64,000 nucleotides of DNA from Corallium rubrum (taxonomy: Eukaryota; Cnidaria; Anthozoa; Scleralcyonacea; Coralliidae). Under the pieces are notes generated by a model. It searched no databases. It had not been told where the DNA came from and saw nothing but the letters and a program-made list of their open reading frames with translations. The position numbers were made by a program, and so were the translations under genes. The stretch covers positions 19,712,563-19,776,562 of the forward strand of contig OZ035997.1 of NCBI GenBank assembly GCA_964035015.1, read 5' to 3'. Position 1 is the first letter of the stretch. Each line of letters starts with the position of its first letter. Of the stretch, positions 486-43,672 are shown piece after piece.

Positions 486-3368
486 TTAGAGACAAGAGAA
501 AATATATTTTTTAAGTTTTCGCTGAAATGAGTAAATAGATGAAGCATTGCAAATATCTGGGGTCAATGTATTAAAATATAGGGGACCTTGATAGCTAGCA
601 GAAAATTGTCTAAGTTTGGTTCTGCAAAAAGGTACATACAAGAGATTAGAACTTCTTGTATAATATCCATGTACGGAACCAATGGGTGTAATAAAATTAT
701 CAAAACTATGCGGCAATAAATTATTGCGAAGCAAATACATAAATTTGCCTAAATATAATAAATAGATATTTTCAAATTTTAGAATTAGATTTTCCTTAAA
801 TAAAGGGTCAGTATGCGCATCAAATGCCTGTCTATTAATTATTCTAATCACACGTTTTTGAAGTAATATGATGCGATTAAGGTTAGATGGATACGTTGAA
901 CCCCATACAATAACGCAATAATACAAATATGGATATATAAGAGAGAAGTATAAGGTTCGCAAAGCAGACTTGGAAAGACAAAAACTTGATTTAAAAATAA
1001 TTCCAATGGATTTGGAGACTTTACGAGCAACATGGGAAATATGGGGTTTCCAAGACATATTCTCATCTAGAATCACACCAAGGAAAACCATCTCTTTCAC
1101 CCGATTAATCTTATGATTATTTATCTCCAATGGTCCAAGGATTGATCCTTGAGGCACACCACATTTGATATTATTTAAGGAAGATTGTGACCCATTATAT
1201 TCAACATATTGAAATCTATTGAAAAAGTAGTTCTTTATCCAATCAAGGGCCAATTCTCGTATGCCATAATGCTCCAATTTTTCAAATAAAATCTCATGGT
1301 TGACCGTATCAAATGCTTTAGAAAGATCTATGAAAATCCCAACAGTATACTTTTTCTGATCAATTGATGTAGTTAATTTATCAACTAGGTAAAGAAGGGA
1401 TAAAGCGGTTGAATGGTTCTTTCTAAAGCCATATTGATTATTAAACAGAATATGATGTTTGTTAATATAAACAGTTAGACGATTAAATACAATCTTTTCT
1501 AAGAGCTTAGAGAATATGGGTAACACAGATACAGGTCTATAATTTGAGAATATATCTTTAGTCCCTGATTTAAATAATGGTATTACACGAGCAATTTTCA
1601 TCTTATCTGGCACTATACCAGTCTGAATCGATAAATTAACAATGTGGGACAGTGGTTTGGAAATAAAGTTAAAAGTATCCTTAACAGCCCACATTGGAAT
1701 TTCATCCCAACCAGCGGCTGTACCGGTGCGAAACGATTTGGCAATATCAATCAACTCTTGCTCTGAAACGGATTCCAAAAAAATTGAATTCATATAGCTA
1801 CCACCAAGGAACGATTGATGAGACCTTGTGGAAGCAGGTATTTTTTAGATAGGTTTGAGCCAATGTTGGAAAAATAATTACAAAATCTATTGGCAATTTC
1901 AACAGGGTTAGAAATGTTTTGATTGTCAATATTAAAACTAGAAGGAAGTTTTTTGGAAACCTTTTTTCTATTTTATACTTCATTTAATATTGACCAAGTA
2001 CTTTTCATATTAGACTTTGCAGAATCTAGTCTGTCTTGGTAGTGAAGGCGCTTGGCCACACGTAGCAAATGATTTAGTTTATTCTTGTAATTTTTGTAAC
2101 AAAAATCATTTTGTAAATTAGGAACATTGAGGAATTTCTTATATAATTTATTTTTTTTCTTTATAGACTTCAAAAGCCCTTTAGACAACCATGGTTTTTG
2201 CAAAATAGATTTTGCAGTTTTTACTTTTCTTAAAGGAAAGCACGAGTTATAAATGCAAGTATATTTATCCAGAAATGCTTCATAAGCGTCCAAAGGATTT
2301 TTAAACTCATTAGGATTTGACCAGTCAGTGTTTTGTAATTGATCATGAAACTTTGAAATATTTACTCTATTTTTATCACGAAATGTGAAATAACTATTTT
2401 TGTCTGACTCAGTATTTTGTCTTTGCTCCAAATTAATACAGAATATGGGTAAGTGATCAGAAATGTCTGTGAATAATAGGCCACTAAGAAAATCATTATC
2501 AAAGTCGTTTGTAAATATATTATCAATAAGAGTTGCAGAATGAGAAGTTATCCTTGTAGGGTGAGTAAATCAGCGGAAGAAACATGTTAGTGTACATTAT
2601 ATCCAAAAATTCACTTGTTAATTGGTGACTAATATGATTCATTAAATTCAAATTCCAGTCACCCATTAAATAACAAGTTTTATTAAGTTTAGAAATTTTT
2701 GCCATTAATGTATTAGTATTCTTAACAAATTCATCAATATTTTGATTTGGTGGTCTATAAACAATACCTATAATAATGTTTTTCTCATGAGGCCTATCTA
2801 TTTCAATAAAGAGTGATTCTGCCCAATTGATATCGTCATATGCCAAGTCAGAACGAATTTTATATTCTAAATCAGCTGCAACGTAAAAGCCAACACCTCC
2901 ACCAGATCTATTAGAGCGGTAATTGTGAATAAAATTATAGCCATCAATATTTACATTATGCTCTGCAGATTGCAGCCAAGTCTCAGAGATACCAATAATA
3001 GAAAAATTTGTCTTTACATTAGCTAATAAGTTGTGTAATTTATCCAAATTATGGGAAAGACTTCGAATATTTAGATGCAAAAACGATAAAGAACAGAGAT
3101 TCTTCATATTTGGGGCTGTCAACAGATCATTTAATTTATACTCCGTATAGTAATTACAGCTAAGGGATTTAGAATAGAAATTTGAATCCGGATCTAAGTC
3201 ATTTGAAATTGCCAAACCCTTATCGCTTCCAGGTAAGAATGGATTAAATTTAATACTCGTTAGTCTATCTTCCTCGAAATTGATGGGACCATTATTTAAT
3301 TCATATAAGGCTAAATAGAACTCACTATCATTAAAATGATTAAAGGGTAGGTCATTAACACACGACAT
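486..3368 (-). pseudogene. LINE-1st copy ORF2: endonuclease-reverse transcriptase, active-site deletion and frameshifts
   Basis: The N-terminal part (2523-3368, 281 residues) is an APE-type endonuclease with LHLNIRSL, SETW and GDWN motifs. After a frameshift near 2570 the frame continues through DNIFTN and SDHLPIF, the endonuclease C-terminus, into the linker (1973-2431). Two more frameshifts (about 1975 and 1800) precede the RT domain (486-1793, 435 residues), which has NYRPVSVLP, the palm motif FIDLSKAFDTVNH and GVPQGSILGPL. Directly after GPL (about 1127) the frame jumps to the thumb (EINNHKINRVKEMVFLG). The FADD catalytic block is therefore deleted in frame. The thumb and C-terminal domain follow to a stop at 486. 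The copy is dead for reverse transcription. Confidence 0.9.
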
Positions 3369-3542
3369 TGTAAAACAGATTAAGATAAATTAATTAAATA
3401 ATACTTATCAAAAGTTATGCAAGATTTATCCTTCAGTATTAAGAGAATTTGTCCATCCTTTAAACTCGTCAATGGACGTAAAAGCATTAACTTCACACGA
3501 TGGGCTATCGCATTTTTTCAGCAACACCGCACCATTCTTCGT

Positions 3543-4310
3543 TCACGCAAACTTGTAGTCGTGGCTCCTTTTGAAAGCTCTCACTTCTTTGAAAAGGATT
3601 CGCATCTTTCTGGTTAAGCTCTCGTTGATATATAACTTTGAATCTTGCGAATATCCCATCCCCAAGTCCGAAGCTTTCTTCAAGTAGAGGCGACGCTTCG
3701 AGTTATATATTTTGTCTCGTACGTCTCGTCTGGTAAATTTAACTATTATAGGTGGGATCATGTCCCCTGTTCCCGGTAAACGATGACTAATGGAAATATC
3801 ATTAACGTTAAGTATCATGTTGGGATCAATTAGTTGGACGATTTTCACCACAATGGCGTTGGTATCTTCGCCTTGGACAACGGGCATACCTTGAATTTCA
3901 AGCAAATCTCTACGCGAGTACTGCCTTTGATATTCGAGATCATTCATATTAGTAGTGGCTTGATGCTCCAACTTGTCAACTCTACTTCTCAGCTCATCAT
4001 TCTGCGAGCGAAGCTCGATATTCTCAGCTTGAAGATCGTTCACAGAGCTAATTAAACCGTCAAACTTTGCACTGAGAAATTCTTGACTCTTCTTCACTTC
4101 CTCAAGGTCGACCTTCGTCGTTTTAGTAAACTTAATAAACAGTTCGTTGATCTGTTCTGACTGCTGATTTAGGCGACGATCGAGAAGAGCTTCTAGGGAG
4201 TTGTTTGAGCCAGTTGAAGCCGCCATGGCCAGGTTTTCATCAGACACTGCGTGTTCGGCTTCGGCATTTTCTTGGCTGTTGGTATTTTTAGGTCGCCTTT
4301 TAGGTGGCAT
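3543..4310 (-). CDS. LINE-1st copy ORF1: coiled-coil RNA-binding protein
   Basis: The ORF of 255 residues is intact. It has a basic N-terminus (PPKRRPK), a Ser/Asn-rich linker, a leucine-zipper-like coiled coil (about residues 50-125, with heptads such as LRSQNDELRSRVDKLE) and a C-terminal RRM-like/CTD region (about 125-255) with the motifs YSRRDLLEIQG, ISHRLPG and PIIVKFTRRDVRDKIY. This is the architecture of L1/CR1 ORF1p (transposase_22-like) proteins, which bind element RNA as trimers. It lies 175 bp upstream of ORF2. Unlike ORF2 it shows no lesions, so it either decayed later or was lucky. Function is inferred from family resemblance. Confidence 0.85.
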   Translation of the reverse strand: MPPKRRPKNTNSQENAEAEHAVSDENLAMAASTGSNNSLEALLDRRLNQQSEQINELFIKFTKTTKVDLEEVKKSQEFLSAKFDGLISSVNDLQAENIELRSQNDELRSRVDKLEHQATTNMNDLEYQRQYSRRDLLEIQGMPVVQGEDTNAIVVKIVQLIDPNMILNVNDISISHRLPGTGDMIPPIIVKFTRRDVRDKIYNSKRRLYLKKASDLGMGYSQDSKLYINESLTRKMRILFKEVRAFKRSHDYKFA

Positions 4311-32587: not shown

Positions 32588-32694
32588 GGCTAGTCCGGTC
32601 TCGAATTCGTCCTATTTCACCGTGTAAACAAGTGGAACCGTACTAATTCGAGGCAGGTTCCGAATTTATCCAGTAGTACCGTGTAAACGGGGTC
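32588..32694. mobile_element. Harbinger-type MITE inserted in the transporter stop codon
   Basis: A 107-bp element with ends GGCTAGTCCGGTC and ACCGTGTAAACGGGGTC is flanked by TAA at 32585-32587 and 32695-32697. A TAA/TTA target duplication is the PIF/Harbinger signature. A sister copy lies at 34743-34851; they share TCGAATTCGTCC, CCGTGTAAACA and GGAACCGTACTAATTCGAG. The terminal base of this copy forms the G of the TAG stop codon of the transporter gene on the minus strand. Confidence 0.82.
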
Positions 32695-33503
32695 TAAAGT
32701 GTTGTGTTGGAGTGTTTTTCGGGAAAACTATCATTATTTAAGCAAACATCATTCGTTAGTTTTGTGAAGTCAAGTTCTTTATAGCAGTAGGATATCATTT
32801 CGCTAGCGATGGCCTCTACGTTGGAAACAGAATCATGCGTAGTACACAAAGTCTCGTTATCGATACTGAGACTGTTGGTTATTTCTCTGTCTTGACCCAG
32901 CTTATCACTCTCGCACACTTCGATACATACGGTGCCTTCGTTTTGGCCAAGTACGTTTGAATCCCCATTACAGTTGGAAGAATGTTCCAAATCTTCGTTC
33001 GTAGCACCTAGATTAACTTCACCGCCTTTCTGTTCGATTTCAGCTATCTCAGAAACACTTTCTTCTACTTCTTTTATTGCTAAAAAGGATCCGGACGTGT
33101 TCAGAATTACTATCGAAGCTAAATAGACAAATATAACTGGAAAAAACATGAGACCTTTATCACCAGCAACTTCAGGCAAACTGTCAATAATCGTAATTGT
33201 CACGCTTGAGTTTCTGGAGGATGAAACAATTGCAATGGCAATGACTGATTTCTTTGGGATAGGCAGCAGCGTCAGGATGATATAGGTAACGACGAGAAAC
33301 GAAGTAATAACTGCTGATCCTAGAGCAGTTACGGCAAGAATATTCAAAGGTGAAAATTTCTCAAGATTTCCTGTCGCACTTGTTTGACTGATTTTTACCC
33401 AGAACATTATAAGAATAGCACTGGAAGTGACAAACTTTAATGGTTTGTCCAGTTTGACTACTGCCGTCTTCACCATTGGAACAAATCTTAAAATTCGCCC
33501 AAC
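32694..33503 (-). CDS. SLC10A7-like exon 3 with acidic C-terminal tail
   Basis: 810 nt including the stop, after acceptor TTTTTAG. The last helices (ILIMFWVKI; VITSFLVVTYIILTLLP; VIAIAIVSSS; FFPVIFVYLASIVIL) are followed by a Glu/Ser-rich tail ending SNTTL. The stop codon TAG spans the junction with the MITE at 32588-32694. Confidence 0.88.
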   Translation of the reverse strand, partial: VGRILRFVPMVKTAVVKLDKPLKFVTSSAILIMFWVKISQTSATGNLEKFSPLNILAVTALGSAVITSFLVVTYIILTLLPIPKKSVIAIAIVSSSRNSSVTITIIDSLPEVAGDKGLMFFPVIFVYLASIVILNTSGSFLAIKEVEESVSEIAEIEQKGGEVNLGATNEDLEHSSNCNGDSNVLGQNEGTVCIEVCESDKLGQDREITNSLSIDNETLCTTHDSVSNVEAIASEMISYCYKELDFTKLTNDVCLNNDSFPEKHSNTTL

Positions 33504-36700: not shown

Positions 36701-39700
36701 TTGAACAGATTCAAGTAATTCACTATCATTTTCGTTACATCCATCCCATATGACGTCCGCATATTCCATCACTGGCCGAATCAATGACTTACACAATTTC
36801 ATTAATGTATTTCTAGATACTTTAAATTGGATTCCTTTTTAAGAGATTAAGCCTTTTGCTTACTTTTTCATAAATATTAAAAATATGCGGTCGCCAAGAG
36901 AGATCAGATGAAAAGGTAATTCCCAAATGTTTATGACTGCTTACTTCATTGATTGGTATATTATTATAAAATAGTTGTGGATGTTGCAGTTTGTTGCGTT
37001 TGGAAGAAAAAGTCATGCATTTTGTTTTTTTCGGATTTATTGTCGCCAGCCATCGCTTAGCCCAATCACCAATCAAATTCAAATCATTATTGAGCTTATC
37101 TCCCGATAACTGTTGATCTTCAACTACATCGAAAAGTGATGTATCATCAGCATACAATAGGCAGTTAGAGCTAAGATTGTATGAAATATCATTAATATAT
37201 ATCAAGGACTGATCCTTGGGGAACACCTGCTTTTATTTCAGACCAATTTGACGTCTGACCTTCTATAACTAGCCTACTCTTTGTTTCCTTACAGACAGAT
37301 AACTTTTTATCCAACTAAGTAGTGGGTCCCTAACACCTAAAGATTCAAGCTTCCAAAGAAGACCCTTGTGCCAAACTTTATCGAAGGCCTTACTGATATC
37401 CAAGAAAACCATTCTAATTCCCTTTTTATTTTCTAAGGGCCCGTTTATATGATCCCGGTGTACCGGGACGTCCCGGTGTACCGGGATCTCGGCTTGTAGA
37501 TAATTTACTGTTATTTTCGCGGTTGCGTTTATATGAAGACCAGGACGTCCCGGTGTACCGGGATCCCGGTTGAATCAACCGAGATCTCGGTACACCGGGA
37601 CAGATTTTTTCCCATATAAACGCGACATCCCGGTACACCGGGATGAAGTTTACTGAACTACAATGCTTGTAACTTTGAATATGACGGTCAGAATTTCGTC
37701 CAAACGGTCAGGTCTAAAGACAAAACACGGAATAAAAGTGAAATAACTTCTAACATTGTAGAATTAGGGTGAGTTTTTGCTTTTTTGTCCATTTCCTTAA
37801 ATTCCCGCGCTTTTTGACCCGGGATGAAATTCATCCCGGTCAACCGGGACGAGCACTTTGTTTACTCCATATAAACACGGGATGAAATTCATCCCGGGCA
37901 ACCGGGACATCCCGGTACACCAGGATCATATAAACAGGCCCTAAAGCTTCATATAATTTGTGAACAATGTACGTTAGTTGGTTGACAGTCGAATCACCTG
38001 GTCTAAAACCCGATTGTAACGGATTGAGAAAATTAATGCTAATTAGGAAGTTATAAAGTCTCATAAAGACTATTCTTTCCAGTATCTTCGATAGGCATGA
38101 TAAAAGTGAAATAGGTCTGTAATTTATTTTAGATTGCCGATCGTCAGATTTAAATAGCGGTAGGTATGATATTGGCCAGTTTCCATTTTCGTGGGAAGAC
38201 GCCACAAGCTAATGACTTATTAAGTATCCGTGTAAAAGAAAATGAGGCCCCTTCCGCCGAAATTTTAATAATGTTATTGCCAATACCATCCTCTCCACAA
38301 GCTTTTGAAACATCGACACTTTTCATTAATTCACACACTTCTCTCTCTGAAGTTTGAACTTCAAACAGGAAAACATTGTTTTGAAATATACCATTTCAGG
38401 TAATGTCGCATGGTCATCATCCACCCTACAATGTTCACAGAAATATACATTTAATAAATCAGCTTTTTCTTTAGCATCTGAGATAAGAGTAGAACTTTCC
38501 AAAAGCGTAGGCACAGATATCCGAATTTTCCTGCCATAAAGAGACTTAACGACACCCCACCATTTCTTTGAACTGATAGAACTATCCTGCAAAACGTTAT
38601 TCAATTTATCATTGTATGCGGCTTCAGCCTTTCTAATAAGTGCTGTTGTGAAATTCCTGTGTCGTTTATATTTATTCCATAAACTTGAAAATTTACGTTT
38701 TTGATAATTCTTTAAAAGTCTATTTCTTTTCCTAATTGCTCGTCTCACTTCACTAGTCATCCATGGCTTATCGCGTGGTCGTATTATAACATTTTTCTTT
38801 GGTATATTCATAGTCAATCGAGATATGGTCTGGAAACTCAGCTAAAGTCTTTGGTCTATCTTTTTGTTCGCCTTTATGCATTTTTGTGCACGGTGCACGG
38901 TCACTGAACCCATTGTATTTTAGTATAATGAACGAATTGTCCAATAGCAACGTTTCAGCTCAATCACTCAACCGTGCTATTTAAATATTAATAAAACCTA
39001 AAATAAAGGATGTGCACGGTGTAAGGTACGGTTCAACATAAAATCCCAGCTCATTATAGGCGCTTTGAAGTTTGCCGAGTTTCCAGACCATATCTCGATT
39101 GACTGTGGTATACTGCGTTCAATAATAACTCGATAACATTCGAACCACTTTTCATATAGCATATCTATATCCGTATGAGAAAAAACATTGTTTTCCCAAT
39201 CAAAAGTTAGGAGATCTTGGTTAATTCTGTTGCCATTAGCTTTGTCAAATTCCCAAATATGCCGTGTGTAACATTTAGGGTTTGAAAATGTAATATTCAT
39301 TTTTGCATAAATTATCGAGTGAATGATCACAGTTAGCAGGAGGGCTCAAAGTCCCGGTAGATATAAAATAACTTGGACAATTTGTAATAATAAGATCTAA
39401 CAAAGTCGCACCACGTTGTGTGATACGAGTCGGTTCATTTATTACTTGAATGAGATTGTTCCATTCAAGCCACCGGTATAAAAGAATGCCAAAATCAGTA
39501 CCATGCATGTGCCGGACTTTCCGAATCGTAATGTGCATTAAAATCGCCCAAAGTCATAATAACGGATTTTGGATCCAAGGAAATTTTATCCAAACAACTT
39601 TGGAAATGTTCAATAAACAATAAATCGGATTCATAATTGTTACTAGGTGGACGATAGCACACACTGCATATTAGTGTAACAGACCTAAATTTAACTTCAA

Positions 39701-42700
39701 CCCATAATAGTTCAAGGTCCTTAATTTCAAGATCCGATCTACGTCTTGCAGCAATTGTTGATGATATATAAAGAGCAACACCTCCGCCCCGCCTACCATC
39801 TTGTCGATCTAATCTAAACATGGGACCGAAACCAGGAATATCCAAAGTCTCACTGAGAATTGAACTACCTAACCAAGTTTCAGATACCGCAAAAATATCA
39901 AATTTACGATCTAGTACTATGGAAGATATTTCGTCGAATTTATCTTCCATATTTAAGCTACGTGCATTAATATGGCCAATAGTTAGATTAAAACTACGAG
40001 GCCCTGGATTTATTTCTATATCTCCACATAACAATATAATTAAGTACAAAATAAACATAACGTAAGTTAAACAGGCAATTCCTAACATTAATGTTAATGA
40101 AGTTGAGGTACAGAACCTTGATTTACATAACATATGACAATTAAAGAGCCCGATTGCTGCTCTGTAAGCGTCAAGACTTATTCCCATTTAATGGCGAAAT
40201 AATACAGAAAAATTTACTTACCTCCTGTTGCAGAAAAAGATATCCTAAGTGAACTCTTAACATATTAACAAACACACAACACAATTAGTTATAAAAATAA
40301 AAATACTGTTCATGTGGTCTTGCGTAAAATGAAGCTTGATCAATGGGATATATATAATAAAATATTATACAAGTTTAAACTTCTGGAAATCATCTATACA
40401 CTGGATTCTGTACACTTCATCGTCGGTAGATCTGACCAACACCTTTCCGTCGTTGTACCAAGCCGACTGTACATTATCTGCCTCTTTCCTGGCAAAGCGG
40501 ACAAGACTAAGGTTTAACTTCGTTAAATCGTCGTTAATGAAGAAGTTACTACCTTTTAGCTCCTTCCTCTTCTTACATATTTCCATTTTGGCTTGATAAC
40601 TTTTAAATTTAACTATAATTTGCCTTGGATTTGATTTGACTGTTGGGCCGTCAACGTCTGTTGAATTTTCAGCTTCAAATCGCCTCCGCCTTCCCACTCG
40701 ATGCGCACGGTCGATTTCACTCGAGTTAATTTCAATATCTAATTTCAACTTGCAAAAATTTATTATCTTCTCCGAACAATTTTCCGCCTTCGTTTCTTCC
40801 AGACCAGCAAATCTTAAATTATATTTGCGAGAGTATTGCTCGTTTTCATTCGCTTTCGTTTCTGCCTTCACTAATCGGGCCCGCAGAGAACAAACTTCCT
40901 CTTTAAGTTGTTTGATTTCGTTTACTAATGGCTCGACAGCTACTGCTACAGCTTCGTCAACAACATTCTTGAGCACGGTTTTAAAAGCATCTTCTTTGAA
41001 AGCATTAATAACTGCCTCAACCAGCGTTGATTTAAACACTCCAGAATTGAAATAAGAAGGAATTTCATCGTCACCTTTGTTGGTTTTACGTAAGTTCGAA
41101 CTTCGTGTGGTGGCCATCACATATAAACCAGATATTCAAGATTGACTTTTAACAGCAAAAAAAATAACAGAACATTTAAACTTTACCTAGATAAAGTCAC
41201 CAAACAAATGCTGCTCCAATATGCAAAGGAATTACATATAAACAGAGAGCAGCAAACGTGCGACGGCTCTGCTTGGCTGACTCGCTTTTCCTTATGGTTT
41301 TATCATGCGATGCTGAATTACTGAACACGAAAAAGTATTGCATGTAAACGAGCATTGACCGCGCGCTTGCTTTAGTATAACCTAAAAGCTATGAAATGCA
41401 TACTATCTGGTATATAGGTATATGGTTTAGAAAGCAGTCACTGATTCGCAAAAATTGACAAAATCGTTTAAACTTTACTGTATATCGACAGACCAGTACT
41501 GTAGACCACTGTCAGCTATCAACTCATTCACGCTCGTAAACCCTTCCTTCGGACATACGAATAAGACTTCTGAAGTATGCCTATTAGCTTTTCGCCTTGA
41601 TCACTAACCCCTAATACTAAAATGTTTGAACTCACGGTTAGGTAAATCGGCAAAAACAGGAAACGCGGACGCTAATCGCATTGTTAAAGAATATGATATT
41701 TTTAGGTTTTATATGTCTATGTTTTGGACTCTGGTAACATATGCATTCATGCGTCTGAATAAATCAATGTTCAACGCGTTTTTTGAATAAGTATTGAATA
41801 CGTCTACATGTAACATAAACAATGCAAAGCACGGTGGATTTCTGCGTGTAAACTTTAAATAGCTAAAACATCTTGGCCGAGCGCCTATAAACACGTAAAC
41901 ACTCGAAACATTTAATAGTTAAAAGAGCATTCAGATTTCAGAAAGATCTTTAATCCGAAACCAAACAAGCGCTAGCTTGTCGTTTAGGCGACAAAGTCGA
42001 AACGCGTTCCGGAATTATTAGAGTATAAACACCTTGTATGGTTTTATTACGTGATGCTGAGATGAACACGAGAAAGTATTGTATGTAAATGTGCAGTCAC
42101 CGCGCGCTTGTATTTATAGTATAAAACAACAGTACATACATACATGTACATAAAAATGTATTAAAATGCTGAAATACATATTGTTTCGACAGATTAAGCT
42201 ACGTGATCGACGGACTAATAGTTGAAAAAAGGCAAAACAGGCATAACCTTGTACGAATCCAAAAGTGGATTAAAAGGGGCTGTATATAGACTACACGTTT
42301 AGCCAAAAATATCTTCAGAACATTTCCAGTTCTTTTTAAGACATAGGGATTGCCATTTCAGAGACCTTAAGAATCAAAACTTTTCTGGCATGTTCACAGA
42401 TATATTATCACTAATTAAAAGAGGTGGGAGTTTAGTTCAAGTAGTTATAATAATTAGTCAAGTTATGCTTGCAGCAAAAACACTCCCATTTTCCCCTGCA
42501 CGTAATAATAATAGACTTTATAACGCTTTTTGTTTTGCTAGAGAGATCTTCTCAATAATTTACATTAAACAAGACACCTGGGTCAGGTGTTCAGGTGTTC
42601 ACTTTGGCTGCTGGAAAGTGCAGAGGTCTCTATAACCCGCGAGCGAGCCAATAAAAATAGGTACGCAATGCGTACATGTGGATACTGGTATTTATTTGGC

Positions 42701-43672
42701 CTACAGGTAATGATTGAACAACGTAAATTGTTCATTAAAACATACTGAAAATGCTTTATAACCTTGTGACATATCAGCATATGCTCTCACGTATCATCTA
42801 GAATCGACAATAACTATTAATTTTTAAATGCCTTTAATAACTTAACAATATAAATGCTTAATTCTAGCCCTTACTTAATCTCCAACCCAATCCCTAACCC
42901 AAGCCCTGCCCCAACCCTCATGTTTAACCAGCGATTGTAAGCGTATATAAGATCAAGATACCTGCTGGCGAAATTGCTGAACAATAACTACGTCTGTGAA
43001 CACACTGAACATGTCCAAGAAAGAACACTTCATTAGTTCACTTCAAACAACTTGATCTTTTAGCACGCATCAGTTTCGCAAAGCCTGACGGGATGACGTA
43101 ATGATTGCCAATTCGAAACAATAACAACGGAGCCGAAACCTAGACTCGTCTACCACAGTAGCCCGAGTAATAATAGAAATGGTAACTTTACTCACCACAA
43201 GTGTAGGGAATGCCGATGCACAAGATGAAACACAAATTATTTGCAAACCAATTCGAAATTCTTCGGGACCAAAAATTGGCAGTGAAGAAAATGAAGAGTC
43301 ACTGTGATTTCCAGTTATGTTATGGTGTTCATGACCCGATCCAAGAACCTTTCCAAATTTTGGTAGTTTTAAAAGGTTCGTTCCAAGGACTGGAGTAGCC
43401 AGTAGGATAGCAATCAACCCCAAGGCCATTTCCTTGTAGCAACGCATGGCAGATTTCATCTCGGCCAGGCGAGATGTCGCCCCGAATAGTGCAAATATTA
43501 TGATAACGCATATCCAAGATACTGGGACGTATTTATTTAGATAAACTGCCGGTTGAGGAAGAAAAATGCCGAATGGAATGATTAGAATAGCTCCAAGTGC
43601 AAGGAAGTGTCTTGACACAAAGTTTCCAATCACTTCAGACCAAGCTCTCTTCTTACTAGCTTCCTGCTCCAT
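32694..43672 (-). CDS. SLC10A7-like (bile acid:Na+ symporter superfamily) membrane transporter
   Basis: Three exons (43672-43196, 35565-35386, 33503-32694) join in phase 0 at both junctions to 488 residues. The first exon holds about four membrane helices, with NITG and NHSD glycosylation sequons in the loop before the fourth. The second carries NGNRAVTLLNSILGIIISVF and FMVVWLIPAA, corresponding to the GGNEAA..NS..G block of SLC10A7. The third continues LPLL|VGRILRFVPMVK, three or four helices and SLPEVAGDKGLMFFPVIFVY. A roughly 150-residue acidic hydrophilic tail follows, longer than in human SLC10A7 (recalled as about 340-360 residues). SLC10 proteins are ten-helix transporters; the substrate here is unknown. 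The match is clear in exons 2-3 and weaker in exon 1. Confidence 0.85.
33651..33713. repeat. (TA)n microsatellite
   Basis: About 63 bp of pure TA repeat in transporter intron 2. Confidence 0.97.
34743..34851. mobile_element. Harbinger-type MITE, sister copy in transporter intron
   Basis: A 109-bp element with ends GGCTACGTTTACACGGTG and ACCGTGTAAACGGTGTC, flanked by TAA at 34740-34742 and 34852-34854. About 85-90 percent similar by eye to 32588-32694. It lies in the intron between exons 2 and 3. Confidence 0.82.
35386..35565 (-). CDS. SLC10A7-like exon 2
   Basis: 180 nt (60 codons) between acceptor CTGTATAG and donor GTAAGC, encoding VTTANGNRAVTLLNSILG and two helices up to LPLL. This is the substrate/ion-site core region in the superfamily. 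Confidence 0.88.
37437..37941. mobile_element. Harbinger-type non-autonomous element inside LINE copy 2
   Basis: Ends GGGCCCGTTTATATGATCC and GGATCATATAAACAGGCCC are inverted repeats, flanked by TAA at 37434-37436 and 37942-37944. The host LINE frame reads ...LYEAL up to one side and ENKKGIRMVFLDISKAFDK from the other. Removing the element and one TAA (TTA on the coding strand, Leu) restores the frame exactly. The interior carries about eight near-palindromic TCCCGGTGTACCGGGA units. Non-coding. Confidence 0.9.
38807..39105. mobile_element. 299-bp MITE inside LINE copy 2 with 7-bp target duplication
   Basis: Both ends contain AGTCAATCGAGATATGGTCT and GGAAACTC as inverted repeats. TGGTATA at 38800-38806 and 39106-39112 is the duplication. 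In the LINE frame it splits ...ERSIP from KKNVIIRPRDKPWM; one TATACCA copy restores continuous coding. The superfamily is not certain, as 7 bp is unusual. Confidence 0.85.
39999..40025 (-). other. 2A-like ribosome-skipping motif in LINE ORF2
   Basis: Codons 55-63 of ORF2 read G-D-I-E-I-N-P-G-P, matching the D-x-E-x-NPG|P consensus of 2A peptides. It is preceded by about 24 hydrophobic residues. In characterised 2A peptides the ribosome skips the Gly-Pro bond, here between residues 62 and 63. Confidence 0.85.
40365..41120 (-). CDS. LINE copy 2 ORF1: coiled-coil RNA-binding protein
   Basis: Intact 251-residue ORF. Residues about 30-100 form a helix and coiled coil (LVNEIKQLKEEVCSLRARL). An RRM-like part then begins at EQYSRKYNLRFAGL and includes IDRAHRVGRRRR, RQIIVKFKSYQAKMEICKK and LKGSNFFINDDLTK. 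This is the layout of LINE ORF1p nucleic-acid chaperones. It is not closely similar to the ORF1 of LINE copy 1, so the two copies are from different families. Confidence 0.85.
   Translation of the reverse strand: MMATTRSSNLRKTNKGDDEIPSYFNSGVFKSTLVEAVINAFKEDAFKTVLKNVVDEAVAVAVEPLVNEIKQLKEEVCSLRARLVKAETKANENEQYSRKYNLRFAGLEETKAENCSEKIINFCKLKLDIEINSSEIDRAHRVGRRRRFEAENSTDVDGPTVKSNPRQIIVKFKSYQAKMEICKKRKELKGSNFFINDDLTKLNLSLVRFARKEADNVQSAWYNDGKVLVRSTDDEVYRIQCIDDFQKFKLV
41331..43195. other. Transporter intron 1 outside the LINE
   Basis: Contains a diverged direct repeat (41293-41390 and 42039-42125, sharing TATGGTTTTAT, GATGCTGA, AAAGTATTG and CCGCGCGCTTG) and the 142-bp segment at 42428-42569 that recurs at 55088-55229. 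No exon recognised. Confidence 0.5.
42428..42569. repeat. 142-bp near-identical dispersed repeat, copy 1
   Basis: Differs from 55088-55229 at three positions by eye. It includes TAGTTATAATAATTAGTCAAG and GAGAGATCTTCTCAATAATT. Same orientation, 12,660 bp apart. Identity uncertain; see findings. Confidence 0.85.
43196..43672 (-). CDS. SLC10A7-like exon 1
   Basis: 477 nt (159 codons) from ATG at 43672. It encodes MEQEASKKRAWSEVIGNFVS and hydrophobic segments (LALGAILIIPFGIFLP; VSWICVIIIFALFG; LGLIAILLATPVLG; GLQIICVSSCASAFPTLV). Donor GTGAGT. The start is the first Met of the frame. Confidence 0.82.

Follow-up and report, generated by a model that had tools for sequence, protein, structure and literature searches.

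Layout of the element and its ORF2 leader

The window analyzed here is a stretch of 64,000 nucleotides of the Corallium rubrum genome (contig OZ035997.1), and all data presented below, genome-wide searches included, come from that single genome of 474 Mb. The minus strand of the window carries LINE copy 2, in which ORF1 is followed by a short spacer and by an ORF2 that opens with a leader peptide. Its features are:

40365..41117, minus strand: ORF1, 250 aa, with a C-terminal Baculo_FP_2nd domain (ORF listing; Pfam PF25298, E 1.9e-5; BLASTP homology to ORF1 of L056, L057, L058 and L060)
40188..40364, minus strand: spacer of 177 nt between the ORF1 stop and the leader ATG, with two other ATGs inside and an in-frame TAA at its end (from the sequence)
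40140..40187, minus strand: residues 1-16 of the leader, its conserved start, MGISLDAYRAAIGLFN (kept across LINE leaders; YRAAIGLFN codons at 45 genome sites versus 0 in the control)
40026..40115, minus strand: hydrophobic, transmembrane-like segment of the leader, residues 25-54, best 19-mer LGIACLTYVMFILYLIILL (Kyte-Doolittle 2.65; helix 29-59 in a single-sequence AlphaFold2 model)
39999..40025, minus strand: 2A-like core GDIEINPGP, residues 55-63, where skipping is predicted to fall between the final G and P (fits D(V/I)ExNPGP as given in the accessible part of PMC12846837)
39495..39998, minus strand: start of the ORF2 endonuclease, truncated by a stop at 39495 in the window copy (Pfam PF03372, E 7.3e-10)

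The sequence-only reading had described ORF2 as opening with a hydrophobic leader, the motif GDIEINPGP and an endonuclease; this arrangement is real, and its coordinates (minus strand, 40187-39999) are correct. The ATG at 40187 directly follows the in-frame TAA, 54 residues lead to GDIEINPGP, which ends at 39999, and the endonuclease match covers residues 73-225. Since the frame ends at 39495, only a partial endonuclease is in frame and this copy cannot be active. In a DNA search it has one close sibling (C18:16361228, 98% identical), the remaining 15 matches being 66-74% identical. Two inverted-repeat pairs within the element, at 37436-37942 and 38809-39107 (52 nt, 88% complementary, and 37 nt, 92% complementary), resemble nested short insertions. 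Elsewhere in the window, another LINE copy at 486-4310 (minus strand) has an ORF1 and an endonuclease, and its ORF2 start has neither leader nor 2A. Minus-strand ORFs at 32694-33476 and 43070-43672 match SBF-like transporter families, the second under curated cut-offs, and are probably exons of a single host gene flanking the LINE.

Element type, ORF1 and the ORF1-ORF2 spacers

In L056, L057 and L058, PF14529 and RVT_1 (PF00078) each score above cut-off in the ORF2 protein, as does PF03372 in two of the three, L057 falling just below; of these domains, the endonuclease alone is in frame in the window ORF2. The ORF1 domain PF25298 scored above cut-off in all five elements tested (window copy 2, L056, L057, L058 and L060), and the five ORF1s are mutually homologous by BLASTP. 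ORF1 is therefore separate in five of five elements, and the 2A does not part ORF1p from ORF2p. Among 16 shorter loci (L026-L055), an upstream ORF of at least 150 aa was present in 10 and absent from 6. The ORF1-ORF2 spacers of the same five elements span 153-267 nt and each hold two or three other ATGs, so that initiation of ORF2 is not trivial; an in-frame stop lies directly before the leader Met in three of the five. ORF2 starts that lack a leader were found in window copy 1 and in one LINE of L060. The genome also holds a single-ORF LINE (L059, at C8:38525778) of 1139 aa from its Met, in which GDIETNPGP follows after about 128 residues; no upstream ORF of at least 150 aa was found for it.

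The leader is a genome-wide family feature

The codon pattern for GD[I/M]ExNPG occurs at 181 sites in the genome, against none for the reversed pattern. Used as a protein query, the 63-residue leader of the window copy gave 69 genome matches at E<=0.01, 68 of them without an internal stop. About eight of the 69 are partial (query 12-63 or 13-63), as in L059, which belongs to a different LINE family and has no conserved start, and three are Helitron-type places. Fifty of the matches were examined residue by residue; in this set, which includes near-identical copies (e.g. L034-L039), NPGP is intact in 47 and the Met at the start of the signature is present in 48. The exceptions are L029 (NPSP), L030 (NPGH) and L042 (ELGP) for the core and L031 and L081 for the Met, and L046 retains NPGP and has lost the remainder of the 2A core. 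Seven more of the 69 (L007, L059, L060, L061, L096, L097 and L098) were examined besides these 50.

Because the 63-residue query itself contained NPGP, an unbiased test was made with the YRAAIGLFN codons as sole query. They occur at 45 sites genome-wide and at none in the reversed control; several of the 45 are copies of one subfamily, so they do not represent independent events. A Met lies exactly 7 residues upstream in 42 of the 45, and NPGP follows 46-55 residues downstream in 39 when any frame is allowed and in 33 when the stretch has to be in frame and stop-free. The six sites without NPGP are L020 (which reads NPSP), L023, L092, L093, L094 and L095. Most copies thus keep both the NPGP motif and the upstream Met on which the sequence-only reading rested, and the 2A-like peptide behind a hydrophobic leader is found at the ORF2 start of many other copies, with constraint at the protein level. 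A single-copy quirk or a chance motif is ruled out by the 181 sites versus 0, by the 69 leader matches and by the 45 sites versus 0.

Leader anatomy and selective constraint

Leaders of divergent LINE subfamilies, 58-70 residues long, can be aligned in three parts: a start of the form MG[VI]xLxxYRAAIGLFN, then a hydrophobic part of variable sequence, and last a 2A core with NPGP at its end. Constraint on these parts was analyzed in 17 subfamily representatives, with L061 excluded and L042 and L046 included in spite of their damaged 2A cores, giving 136 pairs that share history and are not independent. Residues 1-16 had a lower nonsynonymous divergence than the endonuclease in 134 of the 136 pairs, and the last 10 residues in 128; the hydrophobic part did so in none, its sequence being the less conserved in all 136. 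Median identity over the same pairs is 75% for the start, 60% for the 2A, 45% for the endonuclease and 17% for the hydrophobic part. At synonymous sites, which are near saturation, the start (pS 0.70) and the endonuclease (pS 0.74) have diverged to a similar extent; the constraint therefore acts on the protein and not on the RNA, and an RNA-level signal within the start was rejected on the same ground. The conservation of leader and NPGP across copies that the sequence-only reading had put forward for study is therefore borne out between subfamilies, for the start and the 2A core. Within subfamilies, copies decay, with an endonuclease dN/dS of 0.5-1.1 in six close pairs.

Despite the 17% identity of the hydrophobic part, the best 19-residue window reaches a hydropathy of 1.89-3.13 in all 20 leaders scored (19 LINE and one Helitron, L061). 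Elsewhere in three intact ORF2s, none of 3,093 windows reaches 1.89, and random peptides of equal composition do so in 1,656 of 100,000 cases (1.7%). L058, an intact LINE leader, scores 1.84 following the loss of one residue. In 20 of 20 leaders the best hydrophobic window ends 6-19 residues ahead of the skip site. A single-sequence AlphaFold2 model of the window leader places helices at residues 3-23 and 29-59, at moderate confidence (mean pLDDT 72.5, pTM 0.44). The possibility that the leader is a by-product of T-rich DNA was rejected: in three intact leaders, stops interrupt both alternative frames, whose open stretches reach scores of 1.57 at most. Searches of three leaders against Pfam returned no family above cut-off, a LINE leader profile matched no PDB chain at E<=1, and of 10 and 36 pattern matches in viral contigs none was confirmed as a leader relative.

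Variation and context of the 2A core

An intact NPGP is present in 40 of 43 distinct leader DNAs, and the cores differ at p12 and p14; GSVHPNPGP is the commonest (10), followed by GDIELNPGP (7). In a tree of the endonuclease, elements with [S/N]V[H/Q]P cores cluster together (support 0.87; 0.96-0.99 at the inner nodes), and within this group the codons for N, P and G vary and the residues remain constant. The SDIHV/FDVHI cores form a separate group (0.98), and the placement of the DIH clade is poorly supported (0.17). L057, with the core GSVHPNPGP, has an intact ORF2 of 1139 aa with endonuclease and RT.

The accessible text of Li et al. 2026 (PMC12846837) reports, for viral StopGo/2A sequences, that representatives of variants with N at p12 or H at p14 are about 90% or more active, and describes L-rich upstream motifs ending in (A/S/C)G as a known class of 2A context. 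By that text, the window core DIEINPGP is canonical and the NVE and DIH cores fall within variants that are active, whereas the same text names neither SVHPNPGP, with S at p12 and H at p14, nor any core with Q at p14. That GSVHPNPGP-type cores skip is accordingly stated here as a prediction from their sequence. In a by-eye comparison with the same source, IILLCG in the window leader fits the L-rich motif ending in (A/S/C)G.

As a control for the hydrophobic segment, 13 sites outside the leader family were examined, of which three end in NPGW or NPGE and are not 2A, two have too short an upstream stretch and eight are usable. The eight usable sites show hydropathies of 0.18-1.67, and none has YRxxIG; hence such a segment is no general requirement of 2A in this genome. 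Separately, L006, L107, L109 and L111 make up a 2A-like group with a shared upstream motif, approximately YYxNSxAxF/TxxLL followed by GDIExNPG, and no hydrophobic segment; by eye, L006 runs on into a PHD-finger-like stretch, and L111 ends in NPGW. At L002 and L008, 2A-like sites precede stretches that by eye resemble OTU-type protease starts.

A related leader in Helitron proteins

One locus found through the leader search, L061, starts with MGVTIEQYRARIGMHN and continues through a hydrophobic segment and NDVEENPGP into a protein of 1117 aa with matches to DUF6570 (1.4e-19), Helitron_like_N (6.7e-24) and Herpes_teg_N (2.2e-11); the Herpes_teg_N match sits between the leader and DUF6570 (L061:1015-4368, minus strand). 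With the L061 leader as query, at least 189 matches at E<=0.05 were obtained among the 150 of 357 candidates scored, some of them the two halves of one leader. For seven of these leaders, a Helitron_like_N match follows on the same strand at a distance of 2.0-2.3 kb downstream (C51, C13, C188, C306, C28, C1:49735040 and C56:1245692), and five of the seven share their open-frame length with that match (1132, 1396, 1948, 1926 and 1603). An eighth ORF, on C20, has 2258 aa and a Helitron_like_N match (4e-25), its leader being known from the search match alone. In seven Helitron-type leaders examined, ND[VI]EENPGP is present in all seven and a Met start in six. The domain-checked ORFs of the L061, L103 and L104 type carry Helitron_like_N. 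Helitron_like_N is common to these proteins and to Helitron transposons; the L061-type proteins here differ in that they open with a leader and a 2A.

The likeness of the two kinds of start was evaluated in two ways. An hhalign comparison, in which the LINE alignment held LINE leaders only and left L061 out, gave a probability of 95.9 and a pairwise E-value of 6.4e-9 over 19 columns. The LINE-derived scores of four Helitron starts were matched by 0, 7, 0 and 0 of 20 million random 16-mers drawn with rough values for the background amino-acid frequencies. Judged from the sequences, this likeness may reflect common descent, capture or convergence. The hydrophobic segment is more variable on the Helitron side, where of four leaders scored two are strong (2.34 and 3.12), one is marginal (1.83) and one is weak (1.19).

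A proposed separate small membrane protein and its alternatives

On balance, we favor the view that the opening ~60 codons of ORF2 specify a small protein in its own right, one that belongs to the element and is more than a removable signal. This protein would begin with the conserved N-terminal helix (in LINEs, MG[VI]xLxxYRAAIGLFN), followed by a single transmembrane-like helix and by the 2A tail. Translation of ORF2 would begin at the leader Met, as the sequence indicates: in three of the five elements examined, it comes directly after an in-frame stop. The motif and its conservation suggest that, once the 2A core has been made and while the exit tunnel still encloses the hydrophobic helix, the leader would be released at NPG, and that the ribosome would then resume with Pro at the start of the endonuclease-RT. 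The freed peptide of ~62 residues is predicted to insert into a membrane after release, as its hydrophobic helix near the C terminus would suit a tail-anchored-like mode; in all 20 leaders the best hydrophobic window lies near the end of the predicted product, in agreement with the single C-terminal helix of tail-anchored proteins. The endonuclease-RT would remain soluble and able to reach the nucleus, and the leader may serve the element at the membrane through its conserved N-terminal helix, presented to the cytosol. Several observations are brought to bear on this view. Conservation within the leader peaks in residues 1-16, so that it resembles a protein rather than a signal alone; a related start with a 2A in Helitron proteins is what a leader with an independent task would predict; and, the length of the ribosome exit tunnel being well established, a hydrophobic window that ends 6-19 residues before the skip site would still be inside the tunnel when skipping is decided. 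The association of start, Met and NPGP at the 45 unbiased sites, the hydropathy retained in all 20 leaders and the lack of such a segment at the eight other NPGP sites also count in its favor. Against it stand the poor conservation of the hydrophobic part, the strong segment in only two of four Helitron leaders, the score of L058, the shared history of the compared pairs together with their near-saturated synonymous sites, the decay of close copies, the presence in some subfamilies of cores such as GSVHPNPGP beyond the variants named as active, and the origin of all data in one genome.

The same data bear on other explanations. Skipping could be incomplete and target ORF2p to two places, with the skipped endonuclease-RT soluble and the unskipped form taken to the ER by the leader. 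A hydrophobic leader does precede the 2A, the accessible part of PMC4981915 describes N-terminal 2A-like sequences that double as signals with both forms being made, and that of PMC2978324 reports that some upstream sequences inhibit 2A during ER translocation. A signal alone, however, would not need conservation to peak in the first 16 residues instead of in the hydrophobic part, an endonuclease-RT that entered the secretory route unskipped would no longer reach the nucleus, and the position of the hydrophobic window inside the tunnel at skipping, in 20 of 20 leaders, argues against dual targeting as the main purpose. We regard it as unlikely in that role, though far from negligible; it may occur as an activity secondary to that of the leader as a protein. 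Alternatively, the hydrophobic run could provide exit-tunnel context for the 2A only, with the conserved start aiding initiation or reinitiation of ORF2 and the leader having no function as a protein. The fit of IILLCG to a known 2A context (PMC12846837, in its accessible part) and the two or three ATGs in each of five spacers speak for this, but the eight non-leader NPGP sites of the same genome do without such a segment, the synonymous sites of the start vary freely, so that it is not an RNA signal, and ~45 residues separate the start from the skip site, more than the tract of ~25 residues given for 2A activity in the accessible part of PMC11512398. Taken together, these points make a role in 2A context alone distinctly improbable.

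Some dicistroviruses release an N-terminal protein by 2A, and the leader could likewise be a released antagonist of host defense, for example of small-RNA silencing. The layout of a short N-terminal protein, a 2A and replication proteins is the same as in those viruses, and a role directed at the host and common to both would agree with the occurrence of the leader in two transposon classes that are unrelated; nevertheless, the searches gave no Pfam family above cut-off and no PDB chain, and a membrane segment is atypical of such antagonists, so that we give this explanation little credence. We give still less to the notion that leader and NPGP are relics that persist through descent without function. 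Most copies are broken and close pairs are near-neutral, as a relic would predict, but in comparisons between subfamilies constraint is stronger on the start (134 of 136 pairs) and on the 2A core (128) than on the endonuclease, which largely rules the relic out, and NPGP is retained while its codons vary.

Building on the view of the leader as a small membrane protein, we raise a broader possibility, tentatively and short of calling it probable: a leader cassette could be common to Class I (LINE) and Class II (Helitron) elements by descent or by capture of a module, as a third transposon protein, a membrane microprotein released by skipping, that serves the same host-cell need in both classes. 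The membrane helix of the cassette extends to the LINEs and to some Helitrons. As part of the same tentative proposal, the LINE side would keep cores outside the known range, namely SVHPNPGP, NVHPNPGP and SVQPNPGP.

Relation to known systems and significance

2A sequences in LINEs were reportedly described by Odon in 2013 and linked with one-ORF elements. Those elements resemble the ones described here in that an APE-type LINE protein has a 2A core within its reading frame; here, however, an ORF1 of the same family is present in five of five elements, and what the 2A parts from the enzyme is a leader of ~60 residues and not ORF1p. This genome also contains, in L059, a 2A LINE with a single ORF that lacks the conserved leader. 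N-terminal 2A-like signal sequences are known from sea-urchin NLR proteins (Roulston et al. 2016, PMC4981915, accessible part), with which the leaders have in common an N-terminal hydrophobic sequence with a 2A and possible membrane routing if unskipped. In the same part of that source the sequence is of 26 residues and belongs to a cellular immune protein, whereas the LINE leaders have 58-70 residues and an extra conserved start with YRAAIGLFN, and precede transposon replication proteins; they thus fall outside the definition of a ~26-residue signal with a 2A. The LINEs of the CR1/L2 group with a Type II (L1-like) ORF1 (PMC4120745) are similar in their APE endonuclease, RT and ORF1 with an L1-type C-terminal domain, and the accessible part of that paper mentions no leader or 2A at the ORF2 start.

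Literature searches, in which subscription papers were thinly covered, found no work with YRAAIG, YRASIG or YRARIG and none combining Helitron with 2A-like sequences, and the accessible parts of papers on retrotransposons with NPGP do not describe the leader. 2A sequences in LINEs and 2A-linked signals are thus known; the conserved leader, its sharing with Helitrons and the lasting GSVHPNPGP-type cores are, as far as was found, unreported, and the 2013 work of Odon may show such leaders.

LINE biology recognizes two proteins, ORF1p and ORF2p. Should the leader prove to be a membrane peptide that is released and under selection, there would be three proteins per element, and a membrane step would join a life cycle thought to be cytoplasmic and nuclear. 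If the Helitron leader is related, two classes of unlike replication chemistry would have the same need and meet it with the same small protein. The clade-specific cores, in turn, would offer ready-made probes of how far the 2A motif can change and yet work.
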